From NCBI RefSeq assembly GCF_002056795.1, contig NZ_CP020104.1:4907501-4971500 (forward strand): DNA of 64,000 nt, given 5' to 3'. The stretch is from Spirosoma aerolatum (GTDB taxonomy: Bacteria > Bacteroidota > Bacteroidia > Cytophagales > Spirosomataceae). The notes under the pieces are model-generated. The model did not search any database. It was not told where the DNA came from and saw nothing but the letters and a program-made list of their open reading frames with translations. Made by a program: the position numbers and the translations under genes. This document shows, one piece after another, positions 411 to 23,094 of this stretch. The first letter of the stretch is position 1; each line of letters opens with the position of its first letter.

Positions 411-734
411 ATTATCGGCCGAAAAAGTATCCTGCGTCACCGGGAAGAATAGCAGCGCGGAGCGAATCACTAATGCACACATCCGCTTTTCAGACTGGCG
501 CGAAGCTTATCGCTACGTTTGTCAAGCTCACCGATTAGTGGTTAATTTGTCGAACGCTACGTCCCTAACTCGCTTTTGGCTTCCAAACCGGGGCGACTCT
601 CGCGTCGCATGCGGCCCAACTCCGGCGTTTCTCGTGTCAGCCGAGGCTGGCCAACAAACCGAAAAACTTCCCTAACGAGCCGTGCAGCTTGTCACACACT
701 AGACCTGACCGCTACGTTATTGGCTGTTTGGTCC
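411..734. other. Distal array end without a gene
   Basis: This stretch between the mutarotase stop and the last attC-like site has no convincing ORF on either strand. It contains several copies of the degenerate array repeat (for example around 595-615 and 625-650, with cores like GGGGCGACTCTCGCGTCGC) and the post-attC GCGGAGCG / GCGCGAAGC words. It looks like a last cassette that has lost its terminal site. Confidence 0.6.
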
Positions 735-821
735 ACCCAACGACCGCGAGGGCTGATGGATGATGGAGCTAATCACCTGAACACTCGTACCTGCTACCTT
801 TACACCCTTTCTCGGTTGGGC
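735..821 (-). repeat. attC-like site 1
   Basis: Boxes ACCCAAC and GTTGGGC. The inner arms GCGAGGGC and ACCCTTTCTC pair only partly, so this is a worn member. It is the site farthest from the recombinase and follows the NADAR gene. Confidence 0.75.
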
Positions 822-878
822 TGCTTTGGTGGACCTTGCGGCCTGCATCCTGTCGCACGAAAGCCACCCATGCGGAGC

Positions 879-1436
879 TTACTTTTTAAGCAAGTCTCGT
901 ACTTCCATCAGAGCAAAGCCCAGCAAATTTAATCCGTTCCACCGCTTAGGATTCTCAGCCTTGTCGCTGTCAGCCGCCAGACCAATACCCCAAATTTTGT
1001 CTACCGGACTGGCTTCAACTAATACTCTCTCTTTGGTTTTGACCAAGAACTCTTTAAGGTCTTGATGTTGAGTGAATTTCTGTAGACTGCCCTCAACTAC
1101 GATCTCAAAGCGTTTGCTGTTCCAAATGGCTTCATCAAAGTTATGAACTTGCCTACCAAGTGTTTTGGCTTCGGCTGGCGATTTGGCAACGATGATTTTT
1201 TCATAAACTTCTTGGTCACCAAATAGCAAGGCTTTTTGGGCCATCATCCAATGCTCTGCCGTGTTGTATTTGACCTTGTCAACGATAAACGGTGATGTCC
1301 ACCACTGGCTAAAACAAGACGCTATCAAATCACCAGTTTTACTTTTCTGATGCCCCCAAAAGAACAAGTATTTAATTCGTCTCCCTCGTTCAAAATTTTC
1401 TATCAGCCACTCTAAACTGTATGTCATTTCAGTCAT
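879..1436 (-). CDS. NADAR-family protein (YbiA-like)
   Basis: A 185-residue protein of the NADAR (DUF1768) family. Known members cleave the N-glycosidic bond of early riboflavin intermediates, and relatives occur in NAD/ADP-ribose biology. The family blocks are visible: FSQWWTSPF, then YNTAEHWMMAQKALLFGD, and near the end WGIGLAA followed by WNGLNLLGFALMEVRD. The start is placed at MTEMTYS because the upstream in-frame extension lies in array repeat sequence. The gene ends 57 bp before attC-like site 1 and fills one cassette with site 2 upstream. NADAR proteins also turn up next to phage-defence and ADP-ribosylation genes, so a defence role is possible but not shown. Confidence 0.85.
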   Translation of the reverse strand: MTEMTYSLEWLIENFERGRRIKYLFFWGHQKSKTGDLIASCFSQWWTSPFIVDKVKYNTAEHWMMAQKALLFGDQEVYEKIIVAKSPAEAKTLGRQVHNFDEAIWNSKRFEIVVEGSLQKFTQHQDLKEFLVKTKERVLVEASPVDKIWGIGLAADSDKAENPKRWNGLNLLGFALMEVRDLLKK

Positions 1437-1590
1437 TTTCTTGTCACGCGGAACCCAGCTTTGATGTTGGCTTGGTCTATACAGGTGTCCATTTTGTCGA
1501 CCGAAACTCAGAGATGGAAGCAAAATGCTGCCTCACGGGACGTGCAATCTGTCGCCGAGACGCTGGCAATTAAGTACTGCTTTGGCCTGC

Positions 1591-1677
1591 ACCCAACGAC
1601 CACAGGGGCTGATGGCTCCAGAAGTTGCTTGAAACCACGAACGTAGTGCCTGCCTTTACACCCCTGTTTGGTTGGGC
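1591..1677 (-). repeat. attC-like site 2
   Basis: Boxes ACCCAAC and GTTGGGC, 87 bp overall. Inner arms ACAGGGG and CCCCTGT are perfectly complementary. Confidence 0.85.
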
Positions 1678-2025
1678 TGCCTTAGCTTCCCAACCGGCGA
1701 GCATCCTGTCGCTGGAACGGTGACAGGCGCGAAGCGGGCAAAACGCACGAAATCCGCTTAAAGACCAGCGTGAAGCCTCACACTACGTATCTGCTTTTTG
1801 TCAGGCTTCCTTTTGGAGCGGTTGGCTTGTCACAAAGAACATAGCAAACTCGCTTTTAGCTGACCTCACCGGGGCGCTCCTCGTGTCGACCGAGACCCGA
1901 AAGGCCACCCAACTCCGGCGTTTGTGCTGTCGACAGAAAGCCGCCGAACGAACCAAACAGTCGGCCTTCGGGACGCGCTCACTGTCGCACGACACTGACC
2001 ACTACGTTACAGCTTGTTGCGGTTC
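1678..2025. other. ORF-less cassette
   Basis: A 348-bp unit between sites 2 and 3 with no credible gene. Open frames here are made of the degenerate repeat (cores near 1870-1895, 1915-1940 and 1970-1990). The segment just right of site 2 has the recurrent GCGAAGCGGGCAAAACGCAC word. It could carry a non-coding RNA or regulatory DNA, but nothing specific is visible. Confidence 0.6.
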
Positions 2026-2086
2026 ACCCAACGACCCTGAGGGTTGATGGTGAGGAACGAACCTTTACACCCCTGCCCGGTTGGGC
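2026..2086 (-). repeat. attC-like site 3 (short)
   Basis: At 61 bp this is the shortest site; boxes ACCCAAC and GTTGGGC. Arms CTGAGGG and CCCCTGC pair imperfectly. It follows the first Rpn gene. Confidence 0.75.
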
Positions 2087-2128
2087 TGTCAAAGTTTGAC
2101 TTTGCGGACTACTACCTGTCGCAGGAAG

Positions 2129-2992
2129 CTAACCTTGCAAATTATTTGTTAGCCGGTGCTGAATTTCAAGTACAAAGTCAATACTAACTGAACTGTCTTC
2201 TGCTATCTCCTCGACTGTCAGTTTACCACGCTTTAATAATTTCGTAACAGCCTCGGTTTTTATCGACACTTCAGCTTCTCGAATTTTTTGTTTCTCAGCC
2301 TTCACCGCTTCGGCATTAGCCGCTGTCACACGAGCAAAGTAAGCCCTTTCTTCAGGAGTCATCTTCCGCGTGTCTAACTCATCAATCGCCCGCTTGAGCC
2401 ATTCCTCATTCCAGAAAGCGGGATACTGAGTCGGTTCGGTCGTATGGAGCGTCTTCATCGTATATACCAGTTTATCTAAGTCAGTTTCTATCTCAGCAAC
2501 CTGTTTGTTAAACTTACTCAATTCTACCGTAATGAACGTCATCTGGCTATCAATGATTTCACCCGCTTCGCTCCTCAAATTGGCAATCGTATGGAAATTA
2601 GCAGTTGGTAAAATGCTCTTCGCCAGAATGGCAATGGCGTATATTTTGGGCAAGTTGGCATAATCAAACTCACCCCGCTCCACCACTGTATTGAACTTGT
2701 GTAGGGCATAAAACTTCATACGCTGCACAAAATGAGGTGCAAATCCTAACTGCATTTCGACAATGAACTGACTGCCGTTTTCATCGGTACAAGCCAAATC
2801 AAAAATGCCGCTTCGACTGTCAATAGTTAGTGCCTCAAATACGTTTTTGTCGAACCTAACGTCTCGAATGGGCGTCTCGGATTTGATGAGCGCCTGTAAA
2901 GCGGTACGAAGGAATAAGCTATCAGCTTCGTTACCGAAAGTGGCTTTGAAACCGTAGTCCGAAATAATGGGAATGTATATACCTGTTTCCAT
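2129..2992 (-). CDS. Rpn-family PD-(D/E)XK nuclease / putative transposase (copy 1)
   Basis: A 287-residue protein of the Rpn / PDDEXK_2 family, whose studied members are DNA endonucleases that promote RecA-independent recombination. The nuclease core is seen in the N-terminal half: SGIFDLACTD supplies the Asp and FIVEMQL the E-x-Q pair. The tail (residues ~225-285) is charged and coiled, then ends in a short helix-turn-helix-like segment (VEEIAEDSSVSIDFV). The start METGIYIPI is chosen to match the two paralogues in the array, although the frame is open 7 codons further. It is nearly identical to the 7298 copy except in the tail. A Bacteroidota promoter element lies 5 bp before this start. 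Confidence 0.85.
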   Translation of the reverse strand: METGIYIPIISDYGFKATFGNEADSLFLRTALQALIKSETPIRDVRFDKNVFEALTIDSRSGIFDLACTDENGSQFIVEMQLGFAPHFVQRMKFYALHKFNTVVERGEFDYANLPKIYAIAILAKSILPTANFHTIANLRSEAGEIIDSQMTFITVELSKFNKQVAEIETDLDKLVYTMKTLHTTEPTQYPAFWNEEWLKRAIDELDTRKMTPEERAYFARVTAANAEAVKAEKQKIREAEVSIKTEAVTKLLKRGKLTVEEIAEDSSVSIDFVLEIQHRLTNNLQG

Positions 2993-2996
2993 CCGG

Positions 2997-3004
2997 CAAA
3001 GGTA
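2997..3004 (-). promoter_or_regulatory. Putative promoter -7 element of Rpn copy 1
   Basis: On the minus strand this reads TACCTTTG, a perfect match to the Bacteroidota TAnnTTTG element, ending 5 bp before the ATG. No clear TTG is seen 19-20 bp upstream. The position implies an almost leaderless transcript, as for copy 2. Confidence 0.45.
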
Positions 3005-3227
3005 CTCAATCAACGCACTTTCTACTTTTGTCAGCCCGGCCCTGTCAGAGTGTATACCCTGTCACACGCTACGGGGCAAAATCACCTTTTGTCAGCCTGC
3101 CCAACTGGGGCGTTTCTCATGTCAACTGAAACCCGCCCAACGCGCCAAAACCGCTTGCCTATCGGAGCCGTGCGGCCTGTCGCCGGAGCGACGGCATACA
3201 CGAACCTTTTTTATACCTGTCTGGCGC

Positions 3228-3315
3228 ACCCAACACCCATGAGGGTTGATGGATGATGACACTACGTCATTGAACAAAAGTAGTTTCCAACCTTTACACC
3301 CTCATTTGGTCGGGC
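3228..3315 (-). repeat. attC-like site 4
   Basis: Boxes ACCCAAC and GTCGGGC; the right box departs from GTTRRRY at its second T. Inner arms ATGAGGGT and ACCCTCAT are perfectly complementary. Confidence 0.8.
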
Positions 3316-3382
3316 TGCAAAGCATCCCTCGGGACGTGCTTCCTGTCGCCGGGAAGCCTGACCATGCGAAGCGAAATCACTC

Positions 3383-4039
3383 CTATTGATATAGCACCTT
3401 TTCAATCTCAATGTTAGGAAAGTTCAGCTTGACATAAGCCACAAATTCAGAGTTACCATGTTGGCTATCCAATGCCCAAATTCTTGTTTGGCTGGGATGG
3501 CTGATAAACTCCAAAATTCCTTCACTAACTTTCAGTTTATCAATCCAACCAATGATTTGGGTATTGATAAACTCTGTCAACTTTCGAAACTTGTACTCAT
3601 CCAAGCCATAAATGTTACAGGCGTTACTATTTATAATTAACGATTCTGTGCTGTCTTGGTCAATACGTTCTTCTTCCTCTCCAAATATGTGTTTAACCTT
3701 AATTTGTTTTGGGTCAGCGCTGTACTTGTGATAAAAGAGTCCCGTATGCCCAAATAAAAAGCCTTTTGTTTTACTCATCTTGGCAATTTGTTTTGAATAG
3801 AAAGCTGGTAAGATTTCTAGCAGAACCCATTCGCCCGGTGTGTTACTACGACTTGACCAAAAACTAATCTCAAGCTTTAATACATTATCGCTGTACGTGA
3901 TTTTGGGCCTTGACCGTGAATATTTAAAGCTTCTCTTCTCGTAATACTTTCCCAGTTCGTCGCAAACCGCTTGAAATATCTCTTGGCAGGGAGTATATTT
4001 TGAATGCGTAAATAAAGGCTTATTGTTTGTCAAATTCAT
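3383..4039 (-). CDS. Hypothetical cassette protein (218 aa)
   Basis: I do not recognise this family. It encodes about 218 residues from an ATG at MNLTNNK (an upstream TTG is also in frame). No signal peptide or membrane segment is visible. The composition is that of a soluble mixed alpha/beta protein, with a central acidic run (FGEEEERIDQD) and conserved-looking aromatic strands (ISFWSSRS, GEWVLLEILP). It is the only gene between sites 4 and 5 and its stop lies 67 bp before site 4. Proteins of this size with a CQEIFQAVCDELGKYYEKRSFKYS-type opening resemble DUF4304-like proteins in layout, but I would not assign it. Confidence 0.7.
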   Translation of the reverse strand: MNLTNNKPLFTHSKYTPCQEIFQAVCDELGKYYEKRSFKYSRSRPKITYSDNVLKLEISFWSSRSNTPGEWVLLEILPAFYSKQIAKMSKTKGFLFGHTGLFYHKYSADPKQIKVKHIFGEEEERIDQDSTESLIINSNACNIYGLDEYKFRKLTEFINTQIIGWIDKLKVSEGILEFISHPSQTRIWALDSQHGNSEFVAYVKLNFPNIEIEKVLYQ

Positions 4040-4271
4040 TCCTGTCAAAACTGTGTTTTGTCACGCATATTTACCTTCAAATATTGAGTTCGACCAAATC
4101 AGACGTTCGCTCTGTCAACCGAAACCTAGAAATGGAAGCCTAAACCTGACCAACCGGGGCGTTTACTTTGTCACACGGAACCCGCCCAACGAGCCAGAAA
4201 AACCTGACTGTCGAGACGTACGCCCTGTCGACCGACGGCCAACGCTACGTTGTTTTTCAGCTTGTTGCATC

Positions 4272-4358
4272 ACCCAACGACCCTGAGGGTTGATGGATAA
4301 GGACGCTACGTTACTGAACAAGAAGACTCCTAACCTTTACACCCTCATTTGGTTGGGT
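4272..4358 (-). repeat. attC-like site 5
   Basis: Boxes ACCCAAC and GTTGGGT. Arms CTGAGGGT and ACCCTCAT have one mismatch. The central part (GGACGCTACGTTACTGAACA) is nearly identical to that of site 9. Confidence 0.85.
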
Positions 4359-4444
4359 TGCCCCGCTTTCCCTCGGGGCGTGCCCCCTGTCGCCCGCAGG
4401 GTGACAGCCGCGAAGCGAGCAAAACGCACTGTCCGCTATTTCTA

Positions 4445-4999
4445 TTAATCAGTTTTGGGTCCTAAAAAATACTGATTGATAAATTTAGTATAACCTTCTG
4501 AGTGATAAACATACCCTTTGATGTCGTTCAGAACCCAAAGAATATTTGGGTATTCTTCTTTTAGTGAAGCATCGCTCTCAAATTTTCTTGTTACAAATTC
4601 AATTACTTTATCGACCTCATGGCCTAAAGTGACCATATCTCTATCAAGAACACAAGCCGCATCCATGTGGGTCGCATTATATTTGGCCGCATACAAATCA
4701 AATACACTTCTAAATCGCCGATTGTATAAAGATAAAAGCAGAGTTGATATAGATTATCATGAATCCAAGTTTCCTCCTCACATTTTAGCTCTTCAGTAAA
4801 AATGGACTTGATTAGTGGACGGTCAGTTTTAGTAAAATCATATAAAAGGGCTTCCACTATTTCTGTACGAAAGACGAGGTTAGCATCCTCTAATTCTCCT
4901 TCTTGGTTCTTAACAGGTTTGAAAGCGAAAAAAGGGATTAAATTCGGCAGGAGTTCGCCATTATTCGATTGCCTGTAAGCCAAAATAAGTTGAGTGAGG
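4445..4999 (-). pseudogene. Truncated and frameshifted hypothetical cassette gene
   Basis: Two overlapping frames encode one protein. The first reads up to IGDLEVYL near 4700, then goes out of frame (a net one-base loss), and the continuation is DLYAAKYNATHMDAACVL onward to LGPKTD. The upstream end runs directly into the IS3 element at 5000, so the true N-terminus is missing, and the first ~10 codons of the open frame are IS sequence. About 184 native codons remain. I do not recognise the family. The stretch FVTRKFESDASLKEEYPNILW and the acidic, aromatic composition suggest a soluble protein. Its cassette lost its upstream boundary together with the IS insertion. Confidence 0.7.
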
Positions 5000-5117
5000 T
5001 GGGCCGGTTTAGCCGGACACTTTGTCATTTAGAGTTTGAGTGAAATTAGCTTGGTAATACTGCTTCTCAAAATTAATCGGTGATTGATAGCCTAAGGCCG
5101 AATGTAAACGTCGGAGG

Positions 5118-5918
5118 TTATAATACATACCCTTCAATATAATTAAATAGCTCATCGTGAGCGTCTTGAAGATTATCAAAGCAACCATCTTCTAACAATT
5201 CAGCTTTCAGACGGCTCCACAAGGATTCCGCATGAGCATTCTGATAAGGGTTATCTTTCTCGGCCATGCTCTGGCGGCAAGCCCATTTGTCGAGCCATTT
5301 CTGAAAAACTTTACCGAAATACTGGCCACCTTGGTCCGAATGCACAATTAAGCCCGATTTGGGCCGCCGTAAGGCAGTAGCTTGATCGAAGGCCCTAATA
5401 ATCAAGCTCTCTTCCATCGTTAAATCGACACACCAACCGACAATCCGGCGCGAGAACAAGTCTAACCAACTCGCTAAATATACCCAATCTCCACCAGTAA
5501 GCGGTAGGTATGTTATATCCCCCACCCAAGCCTGATCAGGCCGAACAGGTATGCCCAGTTCCAGCAATAAATTGGGGCAGGGACGCAAGCCGTGACTTGA
5601 ATCGGTAGTGCGGGGAACAAAACTGCGGGGCTGAATCGCTTGCCAATTGTGTTGTTCTATAAGCCGTCTGATTCGATGACGCCCCAATGCTATCCCCTCT
5701 TCAAGCAGCGCTTTCTGCACTCGACGACTACCATATCGTCGACGGTTTTCCCAGAAAATTTCCTGAATGTGAGTTGTCATCTGTTGATCGTTCTGGGAGA
5801 CTTGAAAGGTTTGGCCGGATCGGTAAGCATAGTAACTACTTTTGCTGACTTCCAACGTGTTACACAACAATCTTATTGGAAAGTTGGGCTCTTCCTGCTG
5901 GATGAATTGGTAAATCAA
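5118..5918 (-). pseudogene. IS3-family transposase OrfB, C-terminus frameshifted
   Basis: This is the integrase-core part of an IS3 transposase. The DDE triad is visible: Asp in WVGDITYLPL, Asp in IVHSDQGGQYF, and Glu in NPYQNAHAESLW. The frame stops after NYIEGYVL. The expected continuation YYNLRRLHSALGYQSP is present downstream in another frame, because GTAT is duplicated (GTATGTAT) near 5121-5130. The missing ~30 residues are conserved in the family, so activity is doubtful. The first codon used here is TTG. In intact relatives OrfB is made by a -1 slip from OrfA at an A-rich stretch, and TTTTAAAAAAAGC lies at the proper place. Confidence 0.8.
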
Positions 5919-5955
5919 TCTCAGGTCTGTCGGCTGAAAATGGCGACAGCTTTTT

Positions 5956-6207
5956 TTAAAATCTCTCGCTCCATTTCGGTTTGACGGAGTTGTCGTTTGA
6001 GCGACTCCACTTCATCTTCCAAAGCGGATGATTGTTCTTTTCCCCCTTTGTTCTTTTTTCAGCCGCCCGCCAGGCATGGATGATGCTATCGCTGATGCCC
6101 ATTTTACGAGCTACGGCAAGGATGGGTTCGCCGTTGGCAACCAGGCGCAGCACATCGGCTTTGAATTCAGCGGTGTACTTTCGTTTGGGAGTTGAATGTT
6201 TGGCCAT
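5956..6207 (-). pseudogene. IS3-family OrfA, frameshifted
   Basis: The N-terminal ~55 residues (KYTAEFKADVLRLVANGE, then VARKMGISDSIIHAWR) are the helix-turn-helix DNA-binding part of IS3 OrfA. After EKRTKGEK the frame leaves the expected path. In another frame the leucine-zipper segment continues as SSALEDEVESLKRQLRQ and ends in FSRQT before a stop. One base change in the run of five G and four A explains this. The product as written is therefore a truncated OrfA with an unrelated tail. The ATG is preceded by the right inverted repeat. Confidence 0.75.
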
Positions 6208-6254
6208 TTGACACGAAGTTAAAAAAGTTTCGTGTCCGGATTTTTAGGACCATC

Positions 6255-7061
6255 TCAACTCACTGGTTGATAAGCATACGTAAAGTATTTAATTGCCTTA
6301 TCGAGTAGTCCTTTTTTTAAATAAAGGTGGGCCAAATATTCGTCCGAATTAGAATCTCGATTTAATTCCTTTTGGTTGATTACTCGAACGCTCTCCTCAT
6401 ACCAATATATGGCTGAATCTAGATTGTATTTAACGTTCTTGGCATCTCCATACAAACTACAGAGACTAGAATAAGCACGAGCCTCGTCTAAATTAGCCGC
6501 TGCTTTCCATAAAGAAGTTGTAGAATCTAAGTTCTTGTTTACTCCCAACCCGCTCAAGTAAGCAGCACCTAAATTATATTTTGCTTCGCCGTCTCCATTT
6601 ATACTCGCAAGCTTCTGCCATTTTATATACTCAGAAGTATCTTTCTTCACTAACAAGGCAAACATAGCCCATCTGGTTTGTGCTTCTGGTAAACCTTGCT
6701 CTGCCGCATTTTTGATAAAAGGCAACGGCTTAGTAAAATCGGCGCTTATATCACTTAGTACGAATTTTGCCTCTAATGAACCGGCTGCTTTTGCTTGAGC
6801 CAATATGGCGTAAGCTCGTGCCTGATTATCTTTGTATTGCTCACGGTACTTAATATAAAAGCGTGCAGCCGCTACTTGCGCTTCTATTTTATTCGTTTTT
6901 TCAAGTTTTTGGTATAGCATCTCTGCTTTTTTATACCACAATAAACCATCCAATCGTTTAGCCTCGATAATTAATTTAGTTACATCCTTAGAGGCCGGTT
7001 GTCCTGATACACACTGATTAAATAAAACACAAATAAAAAAGACACTCAGTATATGATTCAT
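6255..7061 (-). CDS. Sel1/TPR-like repeat lipoprotein
   Basis: A 268-residue protein with an N-terminal signal segment ending in LFNQC, a plausible lipobox. The rest is built of helical repeats; the clearest Sel1-like units are GLPEAQTRWAMF and GDGEAKYNLGAAYLSGLGV. Such proteins usually act as scaffolds for protein contacts at the outer membrane or in the periplasm. Its stop lies only 2 bp from the IS3 end, without the usual 50-80 bp tail and attC site. The C-terminus may therefore be natural or may be shortened by the IS-associated deletion. The upstream boundary is site 6. Confidence 0.7.
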   Translation of the reverse strand: MNHILSVFFICVLFNQCVSGQPASKDVTKLIIEAKRLDGLLWYKKAEMLYQKLEKTNKIEAQVAAARFYIKYREQYKDNQARAYAILAQAKAAGSLEAKFVLSDISADFTKPLPFIKNAAEQGLPEAQTRWAMFALLVKKDTSEYIKWQKLASINGDGEAKYNLGAAYLSGLGVNKNLDSTTSLWKAAANLDEARAYSSLCSLYGDAKNVKYNLDSAIYWYEESVRVINQKELNRDSNSDEYLAHLYLKKGLLDKAIKYFTYAYQPVS

Positions 7062-7159
7062 TTATAAGATTTTTTGTGAGCCAAAAAGTTGCCCTGTGGG
7101 ACGCGCTTACTGTCGCCGAGACGCTGGTAAACACTCATTTTTTACTGCTTGTGCTTTGC

Positions 7160-7246
7160 ACCCAACGACCATGAGGGTTGATGGATGAGCGCAAAACTAT
7201 ACTGAACGCGAGCGACTTGCACCTTTACACCCTCATTTGGTTGCGC
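7160..7246 (-). repeat. attC-like site 6
   Basis: Boxes ACCCAAC and GTTGCGC; the right box is off-consensus at position 5. Arms ATGAGGGT and ACCCTCAT are perfect complements. The whole site is identical to site 7 and differs from site 13 only in the right box. Confidence 0.85.
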
Positions 7247-7297
7247 TGCATGGCTTCGACTTAGGGACGTGCTGCCTGTCACAGGAGACGCTGAATA

Positions 7298-8161: not shown

Positions 8162-8165
8162 GCGA

Positions 8166-15491: not shown

Positions 15492-15551
15492 CTGTTGTTG
15501 GATTAGCATACAAATTGATTACCCAAAAGATTCTTTCGACAGGAGTTTACC

Positions 15552-15905: not shown

Positions 15906-16265
15906 AAGCCGTTTTTAAACAGGCTCTAAGCGTGTAAAATGCGCCTTCGCTAGTTGCTACTTTCGTTAGTTTACCCCCAGAATCATACAGATATTCTAAT
16001 ATTATGGAATTTGAATTTGGAACGGGTATTAAATATGTAGTAAGTAAACAGCCTAATGGTTGAACATCGGCTTCTTTTTCTTTACAACTAGTCAGTAAAA
16101 AATTTATTAAAAAAAACATAAATAAAGATAAACTCTTCATTGAATTTTGGGTAATATTTTTAAGTAAGTAATAGGTTTATTCGGAAAATCAATTCTCGAC
16201 TAATGTGATACGGGATGTACCGCCTAGCGGCCGAAGTCTATCTAATTTTTCGACTTCTATAAAAA

Positions 16266-16745
16266 TCACCGAAATAGTTGCCACGATTCTACAAATCCAT
16301 TCGCAATATCCAGATCAAACGACCATTTAAAGGTAAGTATAAGATCTTTACTTAGTGTCGATGCAGGGATACTACGTGACATATTTAAATGTGTATCGTC
16401 TAGTTGCTGAATTGAATAACTATACTTACTCCCATTGGTTAATACCACATTTAGGGTTTGGTCCTTCAATGTCCACTTTCCATTAAAATCGGGCGCAGCT
16501 GTAAATGTGCCATCTTTTTTGAAATCCCATTTATAATTTTCGTAGCCTCCTATAAAAGTAGGATATGGAAGCCCTTCTTTACGGTAAATAAGCTCGGTTT
16601 TATTACTACCAACAAATTCTACTTTATCAACTTTCCAAACATGTGTAAGTAATCCAACCAAAGGACTTGGGGGAGTATCATCGGATTTTTTACAGGAAAA
16701 TGAAACTAAGATCAAGAATAGGATTAAGTAGTTTTTTGTCTTCAT
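16266..16745 (-). CDS. Lipocalin-like lipoprotein
   Basis: A 159-residue protein with a lipoprotein signal ending in LVSFSCKK. The mature part has the pattern of Bacteroidota lipocalin-like lipoproteins: HVWKVDKVEF early, then NYKWDFKKDGTF, then GKWTLKDQTLNVVL and a late MSRSI. These are small beta-barrel proteins tethered to the envelope, often of unknown ligand. It is upstream of the split lipoprotein gene (125 bp apart, no attC-like site between), so this cassette carries two genes. Confidence 0.75.
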   Translation of the reverse strand: MKTKNYLILFLILVSFSCKKSDDTPPSPLVGLLTHVWKVDKVEFVGSNKTELIYRKEGLPYPTFIGGYENYKWDFKKDGTFTAAPDFNGKWTLKDQTLNVVLTNGSKYSYSIQQLDDTHLNMSRSIPASTLSKDLILTFKWSFDLDIANGFVESWQLFR

Positions 16746-16917
16746 AAGTAAAATTTACATCAACACTAAAGCTAAACAGATTAATCGTTTGTTCTGTCGA
16801 ACCCAACCCGCCCAAACTCTACAAGCCCGAACTTGGGGCGTTTGGCTTGTCAACGGGAGCCGCCTAACGAACCCCAACGCTGGCCTGTCGAGGAGTGTGG
16901 CTTGTCGCACACAACCC

Positions 16918-17004
16918 ATCCAACACCCACAGGGGTTGATGGATGGGAAAGCTACATCCCTGAGCAACAAGACTTTCAACCTTTACACCCCTGTTTGGTT
17001 GGGA
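16918..17004 (-). repeat. attC-like site 15
   Basis: Boxes ATCCAAC and GTTGGGA: the left box has one change (still RYYYAAC), the right box ends in A instead of a pyrimidine. Arms ACAGGGG and CCCCTGT are perfect. Confidence 0.82.
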
Positions 17005-17081
17005 TGAAACCCTCCTTCGGGACGTGCGTCTTGTCAGCGGAAGCCCACCCATGCGGAGCGAGCAAAACGCACAATAACCGC

Positions 17082-17198
17082 TTAAAACCTCCGACTCTTG
17101 GGCTTGCTAAACGGCCCAAACAATCCTTCTAAAAGCATCATGCTAAGGACAAGTGTCCAACTAAACAGAGCCTTAAGAACGTCTTTTAGAGTTTCCAT
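17082..17198 (-). CDS. Small cassette-encoded membrane peptide (38 aa)
   Basis: A 38-codon frame in the normal cassette gene position, between sites 15 and 16, with its stop 77 bp before site 15. The peptide begins METLKDVLKALFSW, crosses a membrane-like stretch (TLVLSMMLLEGLFG) and ends in a basic tail (SKPKSRRF). It has one hydrophobic helix plus a basic C-terminus, as small stress or toxin peptides do, but the function is unknown. It is the only candidate gene in its cassette. Confidence 0.5.
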   Translation of the reverse strand: METLKDVLKALFSWTLVLSMMLLEGLFGPFSKPKSRRF

Positions 17199-17403
17199 TT
17201 TTACGAATCAAATTTTGTCAGGCCACCGTTGCGGGACATTTACCCAGTTGCCAGCGACCTGCCCAACAAGCTGAAGCCTGACATTTGGGGCAGTTGGCTT
17301 GTCGACCGCAACCCGCCTAAAGAGCCCAAAGGTGGCCTGTCGGGACGTGCGCCCTGTCGCCGGAGCGATGGCATACACGAACCTTTTTATACCTGTCTGG
17401 CGC

Positions 17404-17490
17404 ACCCAACGACCACAGGGGTTGATGGATGATGAAACCACCCAAGACAATAACCGAGGCCTCAACCTTTGCACCCCTGTTTGGTTGGGT
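17404..17490 (-). repeat. attC-like site 16
   Basis: Boxes ACCCAAC and GTTGGGT; arms ACAGGGG and CCCCTGT. Confidence 0.87.
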
Positions 17491-17551
17491 TGCCGACTCT
17501 CCGACGGGACGTGCTCCCTGTCACAGGAAAGCTATCCTTGTAGGACTAAAA

Positions 17552-17965
17552 CTATACTTGACTGACCCGTAACTGGTTGAACTTAAGCCAAGTTCTAGTT
17601 ATGTAATACACAACTAGGAAAACATAGCCAATATATAAATAACCCATAAGTAGAAAAACTATTTCCTCACCCATTGCTATCAGTGTTGGCACCAAGGTAA
17701 CGACAATGTTAAAAAGCTGGCTCAGTATTACCAACGTGCAAACACCCAGAATAGCTATAATAAGCTTGTTTGAGCTATAATCTCTATTCGTAAACAAAAT
17801 GAGGGAGCTGAAATACAAAAAGACCAAGTTGGCGATTAGCGTCAGTGATGTATTAGCTAAATTGGGCCACTGGATGTATTCAATTTTACTGAGTGTAGCC
17901 CCCGTTGAGATAAGCAACATCAATACAATAATCACTCGGATAAATTTTAATAGAAAACTCTGCAT
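17552..17965 (-). CDS. Four-helix membrane protein (137 aa)
   Basis: A 137-residue, very hydrophobic protein with about four membrane segments (VIIVLMLLISTGATL, LIANLVFLYFSSLILF, LIIAILGVCTLVILS, IVFLLMGYLYIGYVFLVVYY). Charged residues are few and no catalytic motif is seen. I do not recognise the family. It is alone between sites 16 and 17 and its upstream region holds four spaced copies of the array repeat. Confidence 0.7.
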   Translation of the reverse strand: MQSFLLKFIRVIIVLMLLISTGATLSKIEYIQWPNLANTSLTLIANLVFLYFSSLILFTNRDYSSNKLIIAILGVCTLVILSQLFNIVVTLVPTLIAMGEEIVFLLMGYLYIGYVFLVVYYITRTWLKFNQLRVSQV

Positions 17966-18013
17966 AAAGGATTGATTTGAATCTGTTTACTGAGCCACAA
18001 AAAAAAGCTTCTT

Positions 18014-18190
18014 ATGGAGCGGTTCTCGTGTCGCACGTTACGTTCTAAGTATCCAAACCGGGAAGGTTCTCGTGTCGCAGACGACCCAAAAAAGCGGCCT
18101 AACTCCGGCGTTTATTTTGTCGACCGGAAGCTGCCCAACGAGCCAAACTGCTTGACGTTGGGACGTGCTGACTGTCGCACGCGAGCCCGC
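18014..18190. repeat. Degenerate direct-repeat run upstream of a cassette gene
   Basis: Four copies of the array repeat are spaced about 44, 45 and 55 bp, measured at the TGTCG core: GGTTCTCGTGTCGCACG, GGTTCTCGTGTCGCAGACG, GGCGTTTATTTTGTCGACCG and GGACGTGCTGACTGTCGCAC. The general form is GG(A/G)CGTnnnnCnTGTCGnCnG. Similar runs lie in every gap of the array and one copy usually follows each attC-like site at its right. Confidence 0.75.
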
Positions 18191-18217
18191 AAACGAGCAC
18201 TACCTTTTAGCCGATGC

Positions 18218-18302
18218 ACCCAACGCCAACGGGTGTTGATAGTGGACACGAAACTCAACTGAACACACGTACTTACACCTTTACACCCTCGTTTGGTTAG
18301 GC
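18218..18302 (-). repeat. attC-like site 17
   Basis: Boxes ACCCAAC and GTTAGGC. Arms ACGGGTGT and ACACCCTCGT pair with a two-base bulge. Confidence 0.8.
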
Positions 18303-18372
18303 TGCAAACTCTCCCTCGGGGCGGGCATCCTGTCACCGGAGCGGTGGCACTCACGTACTTTATGTCCGAAAC
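18303..18372. other. Minimal 70-bp ORF-less cassette
   Basis: Sites 17 and 18 are separated by only 70 bp, holding one copy of the array repeat (core GGGGCGGGCATCCTGTCACC) and no gene. It shows the smallest unit present in the array. Confidence 0.7.
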
Positions 18373-18460
18373 ACCCAACGCCAACAGGGGCTGATGGATG
18401 AGTACACAAGATAACTGAACGACTACAACTTGCAACCTTTACATCCCTGTTTGGTTGGGC
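18373..18460 (-). repeat. attC-like site 18
   Basis: Boxes ACCCAAC and GTTGGGC; arms ACAGGGG and TCCCTGT with one mismatch. Confidence 0.86.
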
Positions 18461-18521
18461 TGACCCGCTCTCCCTCGGGACGTGCGTCCTGTCGACGGGA
18501 AGCCACCCCACGCGGAGCATA

Positions 18522-19061
18522 TTATTTTTTTGGTCTGTTAAACCACTTGTAATCATTCCAAGGCTTCAACTTCTTCCAACGCTTTTGATAGTTAACTGAG
18601 TTTTGCTCGTCCACAAACGTCCCTCCAAGAGTAATCAATGTTTTTAATAGCGATTGAACGCCATAAAATTGATTTATTTCAACCTCAAACAGTATACAAT
18701 TGCCTTCTACTTTAAAAGAAATTTCATAGAAAGGCAGATTGAAGAATAGAGACCGAACATACACAAAAGGAGTGAGTTTTTTATTGATGTCATCGCGCTT
18801 GCCGGCCAGCTTTTCGTAGTCATCAAAAGTAGACTCAGGGTATTTTGCTCTAAAATCAATTCGCTCCTGTAACAAGGTTCTGACCTGCTCAGAATCATTC
18901 CTCAAGGCATCGTTCACATCTTTTATACTCAGCAATAAAGGCAGATTGATGTCGGCAGTTATCCATAGTTTGAGTCCTGTCTGAGTGTCAAATTGGTGTT
19001 CAATTTCAGAAAACGGTGGTATGTCTGAGTCAAACTGTATCTTGTATGTTATAAGCCCCAT
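18522..19061 (-). CDS. Hypothetical cassette protein (179 aa)
   Basis: Not recognised. A soluble protein of 179 residues with strands at the start (LITYKIQFDSDIPPF, TGLKLWITADINLP), a central helix (SEQVRTLLQERIDFRAKYP) and a C-terminal YQKRWKKLKPWNDYKWFNRP that is rich in Trp, Tyr and Lys. No signal peptide is seen. It ends 61 bp before site 18. Confidence 0.7.
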   Translation of the reverse strand: MGLITYKIQFDSDIPPFSEIEHQFDTQTGLKLWITADINLPLLLSIKDVNDALRNDSEQVRTLLQERIDFRAKYPESTFDDYEKLAGKRDDINKKLTPFVYVRSLFFNLPFYEISFKVEGNCILFEVEINQFYGVQSLLKTLITLGGTFVDEQNSVNYQKRWKKLKPWNDYKWFNRPKK

Positions 19062-19278
19062 TCTACTATAAAAGTGATTTTATGAAGCGTGAATTCCATT
19101 AAATTGTCTGTCGGGCGCTTATCCTGTCACACGCTACGTCAAAAACCCACTTTTTTCATACCCAACCGGGGCGCTTCTCGTGTCGACCGAAGCCGAAAAA
19201 CGAGCCAAACAGTTCATCTGTCGAGCTGTGCGGTCTGTCGCCGAGATGCTGACTTACAAGCAACTGCTTTTACTGTCC

Positions 19279-19365
19279 ACCCAACGACCACAGGGGTTGA
19301 TGGATGAGGAAACCACTTCAGACAACGAACGTGGCGTCAATCTTTACACCCCTGTTTGGTTGGGC
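19279..19365 (-). repeat. attC-like site 19
   Basis: Boxes ACCCAAC and GTTGGGC; arms ACAGGGG and CCCCTGT. Confidence 0.88.
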
Positions 19366-19429
19366 TGCAAACTTTCCTACGGGACGTGCTTCCTGTCACC
19401 AGAGAACGACCCCACGCGGGGCGAATGGA

Positions 19430-19882
19430 CTACCAAATTACTACCTCGCTGAACGGCTGGTTGAAGTAGTCTTTGAAATCACGCACTTTTGACACACCTA
19501 ACGGTTTGGACAAAGAAGAAAAATCTATTGTCAATAACCAAATAGCACTGCCTTCAGTCCAAGGGTCTGTAAGGACTAACGTCTTGTATTCGTCAATCAT
19601 TTTCAGACCATAAATGTCTTTCAAGTCATCAACGACCCAAAGTGTGTGATTAAGTAGCCCTTTTATTACAAGCACCTCGCCACCTACCAAGCACCAATCA
19701 TTGTTCTTTCCCACTAAGCCACAGGTTGGATCACCGTAGAACTGGAAGATACCTAATTCTTCTTTGGTGAGCTTATTGAACAGGTACGCATTTTCAAAAC
19801 AATGGCCGAGTACCATTACTGTGTTTTCAAATAAGGTTTTGAAACAGGCCTCATCTTTAATGTATCCTTTATGATGTAGCAT
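19430..19882 (-). CDS. Hypothetical cassette protein (150 aa)
   Basis: Not recognised. A soluble, acidic protein of 150 residues with hydrophobic strands (DWCLVGGEVLVIKGLL, HTLWVVDDLKDIYGL, GSAIWLLTIDFSSL) and no export signal. Its size and acidity are like those of small immunity-type proteins, but no family motif is visible. It lies alone between sites 19 and 20. Confidence 0.7.
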   Translation of the reverse strand: MLHHKGYIKDEACFKTLFENTVMVLGHCFENAYLFNKLTKEELGIFQFYGDPTCGLVGKNNDWCLVGGEVLVIKGLLNHTLWVVDDLKDIYGLKMIDEYKTLVLTDPWTEGSAIWLLTIDFSSLSKPLGVSKVRDFKDYFNQPFSEVVIW

Positions 19883-20065
19883 CTTTCAATTTGCCTAATA
19901 TAAAAGGTCATACTGTCATCCGCAGCTAGACGAACAAGCAAAAGCCTGACCTCTAGAACGCGCTCCCTGTCACCGGAACGCTGAAAATGAACCTTAAGAC
20001 TTGCCTAACGGGGCGGTCAAATTGTTGCACGAAAGCCCGAATTTGAAGTAATTCCTGGACGGGGC

Positions 20066-20151
20066 ACCCAACGCCAACAGGGGCTGATGGTGGGCGCACA
20101 AGTTAATACAAACAACCGCACTTGAACCTTTACACCCCTGTTTGGTTGGGC
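20066..20151 (-). repeat. attC-like site 20
   Basis: Boxes ACCCAAC and GTTGGGC; arms ACAGGGG and CCCCTGT; left spacer GCCA. Confidence 0.88.
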
Positions 20152-20211
20152 TGCCAGCCTTCCCTCGGGACGTGCAACCTGTCGCAAGACAGGTGACACA
20201 TGCGGAGCATT

Positions 20212-20562
20212 TTACTTTCGCCACTCATGGATACGGTAGCCAGTAGCTACGGAGTCCTTTGAGAAGTGGACGATAAGCCTTTTTGAGTAAACAGGGTCTT
20301 CCACGCCGTAATCAATGTCGATATTGTAAGCAATCTGACCTGTACTATCAAGCCCGTCTTGCGGCTGATTGAGAAGGTCAATCACCTCTTTGTAGGTTTT
20401 GCCTTTCAGGTTATAATGCTGAGTAAGGTCATCAATCATGTACTTTCGGTTGGGAAAAGTCATCAAATCGCCAACTTCATTCCATTTCTCTTTGTCAAAC
20501 TTTTGCTGAGGTTGACATGAGAAAACAGCCATGAGGAGAAATACAAAAAAAGACTTTACCAT
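20212..20562 (-). CDS. Small lipoprotein, possibly BamE/SmpA-like
   Basis: A 116-residue protein with a lipoprotein signal ending in AVFSCQPQ. The mature part has a helical pair, MIDDLTQHYNLKGKTYKEV and IDLLNQPQDGLD, then strands (IAYNIDIDYGV, KRLIVHFSKDSV). The order 'short helices, G-KT-EV--LLG-P, beta strands' recalls the small BamE/SmpA lipoprotein fold. The match is weak. It is alone between sites 20 and 21. Confidence 0.68.
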   Translation of the reverse strand: MVKSFFVFLLMAVFSCQPQQKFDKEKWNEVGDLMTFPNRKYMIDDLTQHYNLKGKTYKEVIDLLNQPQDGLDSTGQIAYNIDIDYGVEDPVYSKRLIVHFSKDSVATGYRIHEWRK

Positions 20563-20788
20563 TCTTAAAGTACTATTTGTCAGCCGAAACCCCGAACTGG
20601 AAACTAAGACCAGCCTAACTGGGGCGTTCCCTGTGTCACACGCAACCTGCCAAATCTATCAGCCCCCAAACAAGGGTTTACCCTTTCAGCCGAAAGCTGA
20701 AAATGAAAGCCCAAAAGCTTGCCTGTCCGAGACGTGCGCCCTGTCGCCGGAGCGATGGACTACACTCATTTTTATACCTGTCTGGCGC

Positions 20789-20875
20789 ACCCAACGACCA
20801 CGAGGGCTGATGGTGAACGAGCAAAATAGACTAAGCAAACACCGTTTCAACCTTTACACCCTCGTTTGGTTGGGC
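20789..20875 (-). repeat. attC-like site 21
   Basis: Boxes ACCCAAC and GTTGGGC; arms ACGAGGG and CCCTCGT. Confidence 0.88.
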
Positions 20876-20982
20876 TGCTGACTTTCCCCCGGGACGGGCA
20901 TCCTGTCGCCCGAAGGGTGACAGGCGCGAAGCGGACAACTACGCACGCAATCCGCTTAAATCCGAGCGACAAGCCAAACTCT

Positions 20983-21519
20983 CTAGTTCAAAGTTCGTCT
21001 AAGTGTTAGGTTGAGGTATTTGTCAGTTATCAGATTGATTAAATCATCTGTATTGGTAATTGCTAAGATTTCCGCCCTATCAATCACAATAACTTTGATT
21101 TTATCAGCTGTTAATGCGTCCATAATCACTGAGTTTGCATATCTATATCCATTCAGTTGTCCGGCAATTCCACTGGAAGAAATCAATAAACCTGTATTCG
21201 CACCACGGCTTCTCAATTTTGCAATAAATTCTCTACACTTGGCACTACTTAATGGGTTTGCTTCATTTTTGCATTCAGATATTAGTATTGGATCTAAAAA
21301 GTCAAATGGAGATCTTACACGGTTATTCCAAAAAACAACATCAAGCTCTTGGGCTCCAGTATTGTCTAATACATTCCTGTCAGCCACTCTCACTCCTTGA
21401 AATTTCTCTAGTAAATATATTGATAGATCTTCAAATATTTTTCCTTTAGCATCTGGATTAGGAGCTGCATCTGATCTATCCAGAAAATCTTGAATCCTTG
21501 CTTTATTATAATTTGGCAT
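20983..21519 (-). CDS. Mrr-like PD-(D/E)XK restriction endonuclease-fold protein
   Basis: A 178-residue protein with the restriction endonuclease-like core: KGKIFEDLSIYLLEKF as the first helix, QELDVVFWNN giving the Asp, and ILISECKNEA giving the E-x-K pair. It continues with FIAKLRSRGANTGLLISSSG, typical of Mrr-type nucleases. It probably cuts DNA or degrades a nucleic acid. Its start is 3 bp after the stop of the 21523 gene, so the two are almost certainly co-translated. The pair fills one cassette and may form a defence system, with this protein as a nuclease subunit. Confidence 0.78.
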   Translation of the reverse strand: MPNYNKARIQDFLDRSDAAPNPDAKGKIFEDLSIYLLEKFQGVRVADRNVLDNTGAQELDVVFWNNRVRSPFDFLDPILISECKNEANPLSSAKCREFIAKLRSRGANTGLLISSSGIAGQLNGYRYANSVIMDALTADKIKVIVIDRAEILAITNTDDLINLITDKYLNLTLRRTLN

Positions 21520-21522
21520 GGC

Positions 21523-22398
21523 TTAGGAATTTCCGTGAACAGCTCTGTTTCGTTTTTCAATAAGCATCTTCTCAAAGCCTTGGGATGCGATACCGTTAAT
21601 AAAATCTTCTAGGTCAAAAAAAAGTATAGAATTGTAACCGGTTCCTAGATTATCAAAACGCTTATTATTACGATCAAGATAGAGAACAATAGCACCTTTT
21701 GCCTCTGACGTTTGCATATATTTTAATAACTGTTCTTCAGCTTGTAGAATCCGTTGGGCACTCAAGTTTCCAGTCTTGACTTCGACAAATATTGGATTAC
21801 CAAAATAAGGAGTTAAATTTTTACTTCTAATTATAAAGTCAACCCCTTTATCAGCTATAGATTCGCTTATAGAAACATTCTGAACATCAATTTTGGAAAA
21901 GGTCTCCTTTATCAGATCGAATATTTTTCCCTCATCAGGGTTTTTACGCAGATTTGATATTCTTACTAATGTGTTTGTAGTTTCATCTACTGAAAGAGTA
22001 TCATTTTCTTCTTTACGTATATTATATTTTTTCTTGCTTCCAATATCCTGGATGAAATTTTTCAGTGCAAGTTCAATTAGCGAAAAATCTTTAAAATTAG
22101 TCTGATAATAGAATTTTGTATCTAAGAAAAATGGTACTTTTAAGTTTTTATCGACAAGAATAAATGTTGGCTTTCTTAAACCTTCAGCAACACCTAATTC
22201 AAAAAGTACATTTGAATTATCGAATTCTAAAATTGCTATTACAAAATCAGAATCTCGGATTTTTCTTCTGATTAAATCAGAAAAAGTCGTACCTATTGAA
22301 AAGTCATAAAAACTATGATGCTTGATATTTTGGTTTTCGAGTAATGCCTCGACTTTAGTCAAGTCAAAATTAGCTGATGCCGATATATAGCAATTCAT
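21523..22398 (-). CDS. TIR/NDT-like domain fused to a PD-(D/E)XK domain
   Basis: A 291-residue protein with two parts. Residues ~1-105 look like a TIR-like or nucleoside 2-deoxyribosyltransferase-like fold: YISASANFDL, then IRDSDFVIAILEFDNSNV and LFELGVAEGLRKPTFILV. Residues ~140-255 are a nuclease-like core: a helix with DEGKIFDLIKETF, GVDFIIRS with the Asp, and PIFVEVKTG with the E-x-K pair. Such fusions of a nucleotide-sensing or NAD-processing domain with a nuclease are typical of phage-defence proteins. The gene is very AT-rich compared with its surroundings, which suggests transfer. It overlaps nothing and leads the two-gene cassette. Confidence 0.75.
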   Translation of the reverse strand: MNCYISASANFDLTKVEALLENQNIKHHSFYDFSIGTTFSDLIRRKIRDSDFVIAILEFDNSNVLFELGVAEGLRKPTFILVDKNLKVPFFLDTKFYYQTNFKDFSLIELALKNFIQDIGSKKKYNIRKEENDTLSVDETTNTLVRISNLRKNPDEGKIFDLIKETFSKIDVQNVSISESIADKGVDFIIRSKNLTPYFGNPIFVEVKTGNLSAQRILQAEEQLLKYMQTSEAKGAIVLYLDRNNKRFDNLGTGYNSILFFDLEDFINGIASQGFEKMLIEKRNRAVHGNS

Positions 22399-22666
22399 TT
22401 TGTGTTTCGTAAACTTTTATGATATTATATTGCTTACACACAACTCGCCGATTGCCGCACCTTCAATTAAGAACATGCTCCTTGTGTTGTGTATTATTCC
22501 GAGTCTTATCTTTTAGGACGTTTCCTTTGTCGAAGGCAACCAAAAAACTGCCTAACTCTGGCGTTTATCCTGTCGACCGAAGCCGCCGAATGAACTAAAC
22601 AGTCTGCCCTGTCGGGACGTGCGGCCTGTCGCCGAGACGCTGGCACTCAAGTCTTCCGTTTGCACC

Positions 22667-22754
22667 ACCCAACGACCGCGAGGGCTGATGGATGAGCGAG
22701 CAAGATAACTGAACACAAACAAGTCACAACCTTTACACCCTCGTTTGGTTGGGC
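22667..22754 (-). repeat. attC-like site 22
   Basis: Boxes ACCCAAC and GTTGGGC; arms GCGAGGG and CCCTCGT with one mismatch. It is the site closest to the recombinase. Confidence 0.87.
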
Positions 22755-23087
22755 TGCCCGCTTTCCCTCGGGACGTGCTTCCTGTCACCCGACAGCGACC
22801 CTACGCGAAGCGGGCAAAACGCACGTTCCGATTTTCAGACCCGCGCGAAGCCACACGCTACGTGTCAGAGTTGCCATGTCACTCCGTCTCTCGTGTCGGA
22901 CGCGACCGCGCCACGGTGGCCCATTTTCAGCCTCCTAACTGGGGCGTTTCTCGTGTCGACCGCAACCTAAAAACCGCCCAACGCAGGCGTTTATGTTGTC
23001 GACCGCAAGCAAAACAGCCCGCCCTCGGGATGAGCTTACTGTCGCACGCGAGCCGACCACTGCGTTCTTTTTCAGTCTGTTGGCATC
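22755..23087. other. ORF-less cassette next to the recombinase end
   Basis: 333 bp between site 22 and the lone half site, without a convincing gene (the longest minus-strand ATG frame I see is about 29 codons). It has several repeat cores, for example GGGGCGTTTCTCGTGTCGAC near 22940-22960 and AGGCGTTTATGTTGTCGACC near 22985-23005. By position it would be the most recently inserted unit. Confidence 0.6.
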
Positions 23088-23094
23088 ACCCAAC
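23088..23094 (-). other. attI-like lone half site at the array boundary
   Basis: A single ACCCAAC (GTTGGGT on the minus strand) in the context GGCATCACCCAAC, as in real attC left ends such as site 13. To its right the sequence changes at once to ATAGTATTGTACG with no arm and no partner box. Integron insertion cuts after the G of GTTRRRY, so this is where the first cassette should join the attI platform. No further integrase-binding repeats could be recognised by eye. Confidence 0.6.

Follow-up and report, generated by a model that had tools for sequence, protein, structure and literature searches.

Sedentary integrons of the IntI type, as in Vibrio, Xanthomonas and Treponema, consist of an attI site and an array of gene cassettes on one strand, each ending in an attC hairpin; crossover is at G/TT, and relatives carry clusters of sites without a recombinase. 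In the textbook integron the intI gene is transcribed divergently from the array. The locus analyzed here lies in a stretch of 64,000 nucleotides (the window, positions 4907501-4971500 within one 7.96 Mb contig, NZ_CP020104.1) of Spirosoma aerolatum, and carries 22 attC-like sites, an attI-like site and a resident tyrosine recombinase. It shares the features just mentioned with the sedentary integrons, but its recombinase is without the IntI insert, falls in another clade and is transcribed toward the array, and the locus adds a ladder of repeated motifs, a small partner gene and an extra N-terminal domain on the recombinase. The best explanation of the region is, very probably, that it is a chromosomal integron-like platform with another recombinase family.

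The IntI-specific domain, called I2, is given as a defining character of integron integrases in PMC9668308. Integron integrases are held to require it in order to accommodate the extrahelical bases of the folded attC. PMC4792948 states that I2 has not been identified outside IntI, and gives the integration of CTXphi by the host XerCD, in which recombinases without I2 use a hairpin substrate, as the only somewhat similar reaction; unlike CTXphi, Spirosoma has a resident recombinase and a cassette array. XerC/XerD and the archaeal XerA resemble the Spirosoma recombinase in the length of the catalytic domain and are its best sequence and structure matches, but unlike them it is tied to an array with attI- and attC-like sites and has the extra N-terminal domain. 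The arm-binding recombinases (lambda Int and the Tn916 class, as presented in part of PMC8138268) also have an extra N-terminal domain and repeated motifs near the core; in Spirosoma, however, the N-terminal model ranks UvsW first, the best sequence matches are simple Xer-like enzymes, and arm binding is putative. IntegronFinder 2.0 recorded, within the excerpt of PMC9024848, one complete integron in Bacteroidetes proper, that of Salinibacter ruber M1, besides those of Chlorobi and Ignavibacteriae. Among the titles listed in searches of the open-licence literature none describes a system like the present one in Spirosoma or Cytophagales.

The locus is made up of the following features, in window coordinates; the attC-like sites were placed by a covariance model.

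23474..24649, minus strand: tyrosine recombinase of 391 amino acids, transcribed toward the array; start taken as the first ATG (in the list of open reading frames, ORFs, it began at 24721)
23251..23499, plus strand: small gene of 82 amino acids, convergent with the recombinase, whose 3' end it overlaps by 26 bp
23116..23166, no strand assigned: long hairpin adjoining attI, perhaps a terminator, seen in the sequence
23087..23108, minus strand: attI-like site GCGTACAATACTATG/TTGGGTG, with the crossover inferred between 23094 and 23093
582..23058, minus strand: ladder motif, consensus TGgCgGGTTTCGGGCGACAGGacGCACGCCCCG on the cassette strand, 83-85 copies in the window
22665..22757, minus strand: attC-like site 22 (nearest attI)
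20787..20878, minus strand: attC-like site 21
20064..20154, minus strand: attC-like site 20
19277..19368, minus strand: attC-like site 19
18371..18463, minus strand: attC-like site 18
18216..18305, minus strand: attC-like site 17
17402..17493, minus strand: attC-like site 16
16916..17007, minus strand: attC-like site 15
13756..13847, minus strand: attC-like site 14
13432..13523, minus strand: attC-like site 13
12553..12642, minus strand: attC-like site 12
11664..11755, minus strand: attC-like site 11
10830..10919, minus strand: attC-like site 10
9959..10050, minus strand: attC-like site 9
8728..8796, minus strand: attC-like site 8, with a short terminal loop
8349..8440, minus strand: attC-like site 7
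7158..7249, minus strand: attC-like site 6
4270..4361, minus strand: attC-like site 5
3226..3318, minus strand: attC-like site 4
2024..2089, minus strand: attC-like site 3, with a short terminal loop
1589..1680, minus strand: attC-like site 2
733..824, minus strand: attC-like site 1 (farthest from attI)

The 22 sites are 66-93 bp each (one flanking base per end counted) and span 733-22757. The covariance model, R1, was built on these sites and recovers 22 of 22 with E <= 3.5e-10, all on the minus strand, which is expected because they are the sites from which it was built; on the plus strand of the window there is a single match, with E 0.14. In the whole genome, with E up to 1, R1 gives 33 matches: the 22 of the window and 11 at four other places, namely six at 5125585-5129255, two at 1525404-1526715, one at 2660794, and two at 6652667-6653251 with an E of only 0.64. 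The group of six sits without a recombinase, as does a cluster of attC sites lacking integron-integrases (CALIN). Since the matches are clustered at few places they indicate a platform and not scattered repeats, and sites scattered in both orientations were seen neither in the genome search nor in the oriented loci described below. It should be noted that the box by itself proves nothing, because the octamer GTTGGGTG has an ordinary genome frequency (138 + 166 occurrences, against 128 + 129 for the reversed control); the notion that the box repeat suffices as evidence was rejected for this reason. An Rfam search of positions 1-24800 at E 0.1 found no match.

In cassette orientation the site reads GCA-GCCCAAC-(3 nt)-L''-GTAAA-GG ... 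CC-ATCA-L'-(4 nt)-GTTGGGT-G. The R stem has 7 nearly invariant pairs, and the L stem has 8 pairs, the sequence of which varies between sites while the arms stay complementary. R stem, unpaired spacer, L stem and terminal structure are all present, the parts into which attC is divided in the excerpt of PMC2727003. Among the 22 sites 95.7% of the cells are paired, against 88.8% in shuffles, and 33 cells pair despite changes on both sides, against 11.6 (0 of 500 shuffles as high). A larger analysis of the best 150 of 201 matches, from 40 sources, gave 97.6% paired and 259 double changes against 88.7% and 80.5 in shuffles, with an alignment that was fitted to the structure and so leans toward it. 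The fold of the site is beyond chance, with compensatory changes in the inner stem. The consensus L stem is 8 unbroken pairs, no single bulged base was seen in the L or R stem, and the asymmetry between the arms is confined to two internal loops, GTAAA/ATCA and the spacer.

Movement of cassettes was analyzed in 40 distinct loci with 251 sites, oriented by site strand (L074, which repeats 3 window sites, was dropped). None of the 41 loci is mixed-strand, and 36 of the 40 have two or more sites. For the 135 intervals of 400-1600 bp between sites in these 36 loci the longest ORF of at least 80 amino acids was tallied; it is on the cassette strand in 121, on the other strand in 4, and there is none in 10. 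Comparison of the loci by blastn (at least 80% identity over at least 150 bp, within arrays) gave 130 shared blocks, and as a control the cut was moved 100-400 bp in 26 ways. In 32 of the 130 blocks both copies end 4-12 bp past the cut, after the shared TTGGGTG (shifted mean 0.15, maximum 4), and in 8 both copies start within 3 bp of the cut (shifted mean 0.42, maximum 6). An earlier count under somewhat different limits had given 39 of 140 block ends at the box, where 2.4 are expected at random. Each of the 8 start-matched blocks pairs one attI copy with one attC copy; five are short (169-224 bp), comparable with the distance over which the ladder extends, and three are whole units or large parts of units. 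In the remaining 98 blocks at least one copy ends away from the box, and many of them sit at single genes, such as those for Rpn nucleases. The cassettes shared by L077 and L100 (1027 bp, 95.5%), by L079 and L089 (502 bp, 95.0%) and by two places within L085 (724 bp, 98.6%), together with a fourth pair from L077 and L107 (758 bp, 92.3%), which begins at the attI core on the contig of genome G030, all start within 2 bp of G/TTGGGTG, at attI in one copy and at attC in mid-array in the other, with identities of 92-98.6%. Cassettes 95-98.6% identical at attI and elsewhere indicate recent moves.

The flanks and the arrays were also compared between genomes. On the recombinase side the window has 14.7 kb of flank in common with G027 (88%) and 12.3 kb with G020 (83%), and these blocks end 479-2098 bp before the first cut. 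Between the array of G027, which has 5 sites on the contig, and that of the window the common sequence amounts to just 6 blocks of 164-297 bp (76-83%), each roughly as long as a site plus ladder; the contig of G020 stops at its first site and its array was left out of the comparison.

The original prediction, made from the letters of the window, was of 22 sites over 411..23094 that separate mostly single genes on the same strand. The 22 sites are there and the observation is confirmed; the core at 23087-23094 turned out to be the attI-like site and no 23rd attC, and the prediction made no mention of the ladder with its 83-85 motif copies. The reading as integron cassettes has gained support from the one-strand clusters and the joins at the box. 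A search on both strands left the plus strand nearly empty; in relatives the ends of shared blocks coincide with the box much more frequently than with shifted boxes, and there are four cassettes whose start lies within 2 bp of the breakpoint that had been proposed, between G and TTGGGTG. Dispersal as ordinary repeats, which was named as fatal to the reading, is at odds with 11 further matches at four places and with the lack of mixed-strand loci.

A recombinase match by tblastn was obtained at 25 loci, window included, where some of the genes are partial. At every one of the 25 the recombinase precedes the first site and is encoded on the site strand, and in 23 an attI-like core with an exact TTGGGTG within GCGTACAATAnTATG or a close variant lies 350-437 bp past the recombinase. 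The locus shares with integrons gene units of one orientation separated by attC-like sites and an attI-like site beside the recombinase with a G/TT crossover. Array, recombinase and attI-like core recur in the same arrangement within the genus and in three further genera of its family. Between the recombinase and the attI-like core lies the small gene, which tblastn found at 28 of the 40 loci, including all 25 with a recombinase match; a few copies have stops. Its product has 41 homologs in the whole protein collection, and those with names are all from Spirosoma, Nibrella or Fibrisoma; several are labelled NUMOD4 by UniRef. Against Pfam the small protein had no convincing match, DUF6690 appearing in 8 of 20 members with a best E of 0.00026.

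The distribution was surveyed in 99 genomes including that of the window, with sites counted at E 0.01 and the recombinase at 60% identity or more; G059, with a homolog of 45%, was counted as without. Sites occur in 38 of the 99: 35 of the 36 genomes of the genus and G037, G042 and G052 from three other genera of the family. In the 38 genomes from elsewhere in the order there are none. Sites and recombinase occur together in 27 genomes, sites only in 11, recombinase only in 0 and neither in 61; the median number of sites is 17 with the recombinase and 4 among the sites-only genomes, some of which have just 1-3. This co-occurrence is the pattern of integrons and CALIN, and in the 11 genomes of the genus with sites only, the sites would be CALIN-like remnants. 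The genome G030 has an attI core in L107 (at oriented position 10875) and 28 sites, the most among the genus relatives, and no recombinase at the threshold used. A search of plasmids at E 1e-40 gave 221 records, every one below 60% identity to the recombinase.

The recombinase gene of the window is intact. Its named close homologs are from Spirosoma, Nibrella and Fibrella. The catalytic part is Xer-like, without the IntI insert: XerA is a better PDB match than IntI4, though IntI4 is among the best, and the match to IntI4 splits in two where IntI4 carries extra residues. The curated IntI profile TIGR02249 gives 177 bits in two stretches, below its cut-off of 265. As a simple measure we used the patch distance, the number of residues from the GKG..DR patch to the H.LRH motif. 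Of 22 Spirosoma-type enzymes, 21 have a distance of 66-71, and the remaining one was mis-read by the pattern; E. coli XerC has 69 and XerD 73, and the value is 107 in all 24 IntI measured of 29 tried. In a tree both the Spirosoma clade (SPI) and the IntI clade have full support, and a single clade of the two is rejected (p-AU 0.00975). By three tests, the insert, the profile cut-off and the clade, the recombinase is thus classed from its sequence as lying outside the IntI-based family. When more homologs are added the tree gives no firm order to its deep branches, those of the SPI and IntI clades included, so both systems may descend from an older hairpin-using ancestor. A model of residues 1-95 matches UvsW/XPB/HARP-like domains with moderate scores, UvsW ranking top; the comparison of structures (VIA-align) found no arm-binding domain of the lambda type among the matches, which does not exclude one.

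In the usual layout of the ladder one copy ends a few bp before the site and up to four follow the cut, with a spacing of about 55 bp. The 40 loci (807 kb) were searched with a 40-bp profile that had been trained on the window, which found 875 copies inside the array limits and 44 elsewhere in the loci, all on the cassette strand and 0 on the opposite strand. For the 251 sites there are 213 copies whose end is no more than 15 bp short of a site, at 5-9 bp in 199; after the cut there are 195, 181, 126 and 30 copies at about +35, +90, +145 and +200, and 169 copies fit none of the fixed positions. The two kinds of copy that adjoin the core share the variant GACAGG..GCACGtCCCG, and the outer copies share AAACGCCCC. 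In the 400 bp before attI the ladder score is at background, and a good copy lies within 120 bp after attI in 20 of 23 loci (19 at +29 to +37, one at +72; three have none). With background before attI and copies after it and beside the sites, the ladder belongs to the cassettes. In a circular unit it would flank the core on both sides, with a spacing of about five helical turns, and we take the copies to be putative protein-binding sites, for recombination or for expression. A hairpin or RNA element was considered and rejected, as no stem-like covarying pairs appear in 919 copies and Rfam gave no match; column pair 24/35 does pair more often than expected (0.55 against 0.32), which is put down to two variants of the motif. 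To our knowledge the ladder, the N-terminal UvsW/XPB/HARP-like domain and the small partner gene are new for such a system.

Recombinases without I2 form a wider family, of which we analyzed 93 homolog loci, 13 from the surveyed genomes and 80 from a contig search (29-46% identity and none from Spirosoma among the matches listed, which is no sign of absence). The patch distance is 63-72 in 86 of the 89 measured and 107 in one, and part of the family shares the extra N-terminal region (matches begin at residue 3-37). Of 295 genomes sampled from the class, 83 have relatives of the Flavobacterium enzyme of L171 at E 1e-55. Repeat islands number three or more at 25 of the 93 loci, and in 17 of these three or more lie downstream of the recombinase; 15 of the 17 were kept (L164 is the same record as L151, and L188 has repeats on both sides). 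ORFs between islands are on the recombinase strand in 36 of 39 intervals (23 loci). A simple arm score on the islands gave no uniform picture: most of the 15 loci scored above shuffled sequence, and L142, L152 and L170 below it. A conclusion from a strict scan, that the homologs of about 40% identity are without arrays, was rejected when self-comparison showed repeat arrays beside some of them; that scan found no site near a real IntI (L153) either.

In these 15 loci the bases after GTT of site i were compared with those before AAC of site i+1, at least 7 nt being required to be complementary. This was so in 21 of 62 cases over 9 loci, against 0 of 77 for the same site and 9 of 338 for other pairs, and it is the trace expected from circular cassettes. 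The signal is clearest in L171, L151, L152, L148 and L178, is present in one of two cases in the Firmicute L181 (Saccharibacillus, three sites), and is absent in 6 of the 15: L142, L146, L160, L163, L170 and L184. The outer arms pair across the unit and not within the site in L171, L151, L152, L148, L178, L143, L181, L162 and L182, and such arrays include loci of Rufibacter, Flavobacterium, Arundinibacter and Saccharibacillus. The Spirosoma box variants gave 0 of 30; the boxes there are nearly invariant and the test is therefore uninformative. A second sample of 20 loci, hand-picked from the 92 matches listed, contained 13 with more than 5 kb after the gene. Three of these have three or more downstream repeat islands, with 11 ORFs on the recombinase strand and 4 against, but the complementarity was found in 0 of 19 cases, which does not support the signal of the first sample. 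Over both samples the arrays beside distant I2-less recombinases look real but sporadic. In seven of the 20 loci (L269, L272, L280, L284, L285, L287 and L288) the contig ends less than 4 kb past the recombinase, and these ends may be assembly breaks at repeats.

Among the contents of the window cassettes most proteins scanned match no family. The contents that could be named are a NADAR protein, three Rpn nucleases, a lipocalin-like protein, a DUF4595 protein and a weak Mrr-like pair, so that the original prediction of lipoproteins, membrane proteins and defence-type genes is only partly borne out. The cassette genes placed by the family scan are:

879..1439, minus strand: NADAR domain protein
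2129..3013, minus strand: Rpn-type PD-(D/E)XK nuclease, with further copies at 7298-8161 and 8842-9714
20983..22398, minus strand: two-gene cassette with two weak Mrr_cat-like proteins, below the curated cut-off

The Rpn-type genes of the three cassettes are of the recombination-promoting nuclease type, and the second protein of the two-gene cassette has a weak TIR/deoxyribosyltransferase-like N-terminus. Four intervals of 67-350 bp hold no clear gene. Inside the array there are also an IS3-like transposase with rve and HTH_21 domains (5118-5918) and a transposase of the IS5 family (14736-15509), beside which lies a plus-strand ORF of 117 amino acids (15552-15905) without a Pfam match.

Several other explanations of the locus have been considered. 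An ordinary sedentary integron with a divergent IntI missed by our tests would have the same anatomy (attI, R and L stems of attC, one-strand cassettes, G/TT joins), and it could claim the 177 bits of TIGR02249 in two pieces and the place of IntI4 among the best PDB matches. It was rejected on the profile score, short of 265 bits, the patch distance of 66-71 where IntI has 107, and the tree, and XerA fits better than IntI4; we consider it very improbable. Hardly more probable is that the array is cassette-like but a fossil, the recombinase serving another purpose. An early internal stop in the recombinase of L078 and L100, the absence of a recombinase at E 1e-60 from 12 of 36 genus genomes, and the insertion sequence genes and gene-free intervals of the window array speak for decay, but the window recombinase is intact, the nearly identical cassettes at attI and elsewhere point to recent moves, and the window and G027 share a flank and differ in cassettes. 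Dispersed intergenic repeats of the ordinary REP (repetitive extragenic palindromic) type can appeal to the eleven matches outside the window array and are scarcely credible when the multi-site loci are one-strand clusters with a ladder, tied to one recombinase and with joins at the box.

Two alternatives leave the cassettes in place and concern how the parts work. The sites might be recombined as double-stranded inverted core sites in the manner of Xer, unfolded, with cassettes still moving. A recombinase without the IntI insert and consensus R and L stems without a single bulged base suit this route, as does the account in part of PMC4792948 of XerCD, which lack I2-like domains, and of a CTXphi site whose stem lacks extrahelical bases and mimics a duplex; but a site bound as duplex does not need L arms that vary and yet covary (259 double changes against 80.5), and we find the duplex route unlikely, although it deserves serious attention. 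The ladder, for its part, might be a shared cis-regulatory array that gives each cassette a regulated promoter region and has no role in recombination. Most copies do fall in the stretch from the cut to the gene start, the final copy at a median of 46 bp before the ORF, and TAnnTTTG is present upstream in 13 of 122 cases, with 3 of 122 for the opposite strand, a weak promoter signal. On the other hand, the 213 copies within 15 bp before a site come after the gene, short intervals without a clear gene carry the ladder too, and the full TTTG-spacer-TAnnTTTG pattern is found in 0 of 122. This regulatory role is a substantial possibility that we do not favor.

We return to the integron-like platform with another recombinase family. 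The DNA itself displays a resident recombinase, an attI-like core and units of one orientation, each ending in a foldable attC-like site; the units recur in other arrays, with joins at G/TTGGGTG at both attI and attC. Judged by the sequence tests, the platform looks like an integron and has acted as one, save for the complementarity test that the invariant boxes make uninformative; what sets it apart is a recombinase of another family, together with a composite site and the small partner gene. We propose that the recombinase would excise units as circles and insert them at attI, and that attC would be recombined as a folded single strand, as in integrons, and attI as a duplex. The N-terminal UvsW/XPB/HARP-like domain could conceivably help in recognizing the hairpin, which is proposed because the enzyme is without the IntI insert that reads extrahelical bases. 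The 55-bp ladder, just as tentatively, might provide arm sites for this domain or for the small partner protein, and in so doing mark the cassette ends and aid extrusion, synapsis or direction.

The original prediction left the choice between a sedentary integron and an independently evolved analogue. An analogue with respect to the recombinase family is favored, which may or may not have arisen independently of the IntI integrons. It also held that such arrays are hardly described in Bacteroidota, which applies better to the class than to the phylum: in a sample of 296 genomes of the phylum as delimited by GTDB, 84 have IntI genes above the curated cut-off, and of 85 genomes matching IntI one (G135) is labelled as the same class, a count given without that class's share of the sample.

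Taken more widely, we lean slightly toward a second kind of integron, in which I2-less recombinases formed arrays repeatedly in Bacteroidota and once in a Firmicute, and in which Spirosoma combines a core with an arm ladder phased at 55 bp and a small DNA-binding partner of its own. If this is true, structure-specific capture of cassettes would have been solved by more than one kind of protein. Such a system, working without I2, would, if true, show that the insert is dispensable, and it would give a natural point of comparison for the way in which tyrosine recombinases acquired the use of hairpins. It would also reveal a pool of cassettes which tools keyed to IntI can pass over.

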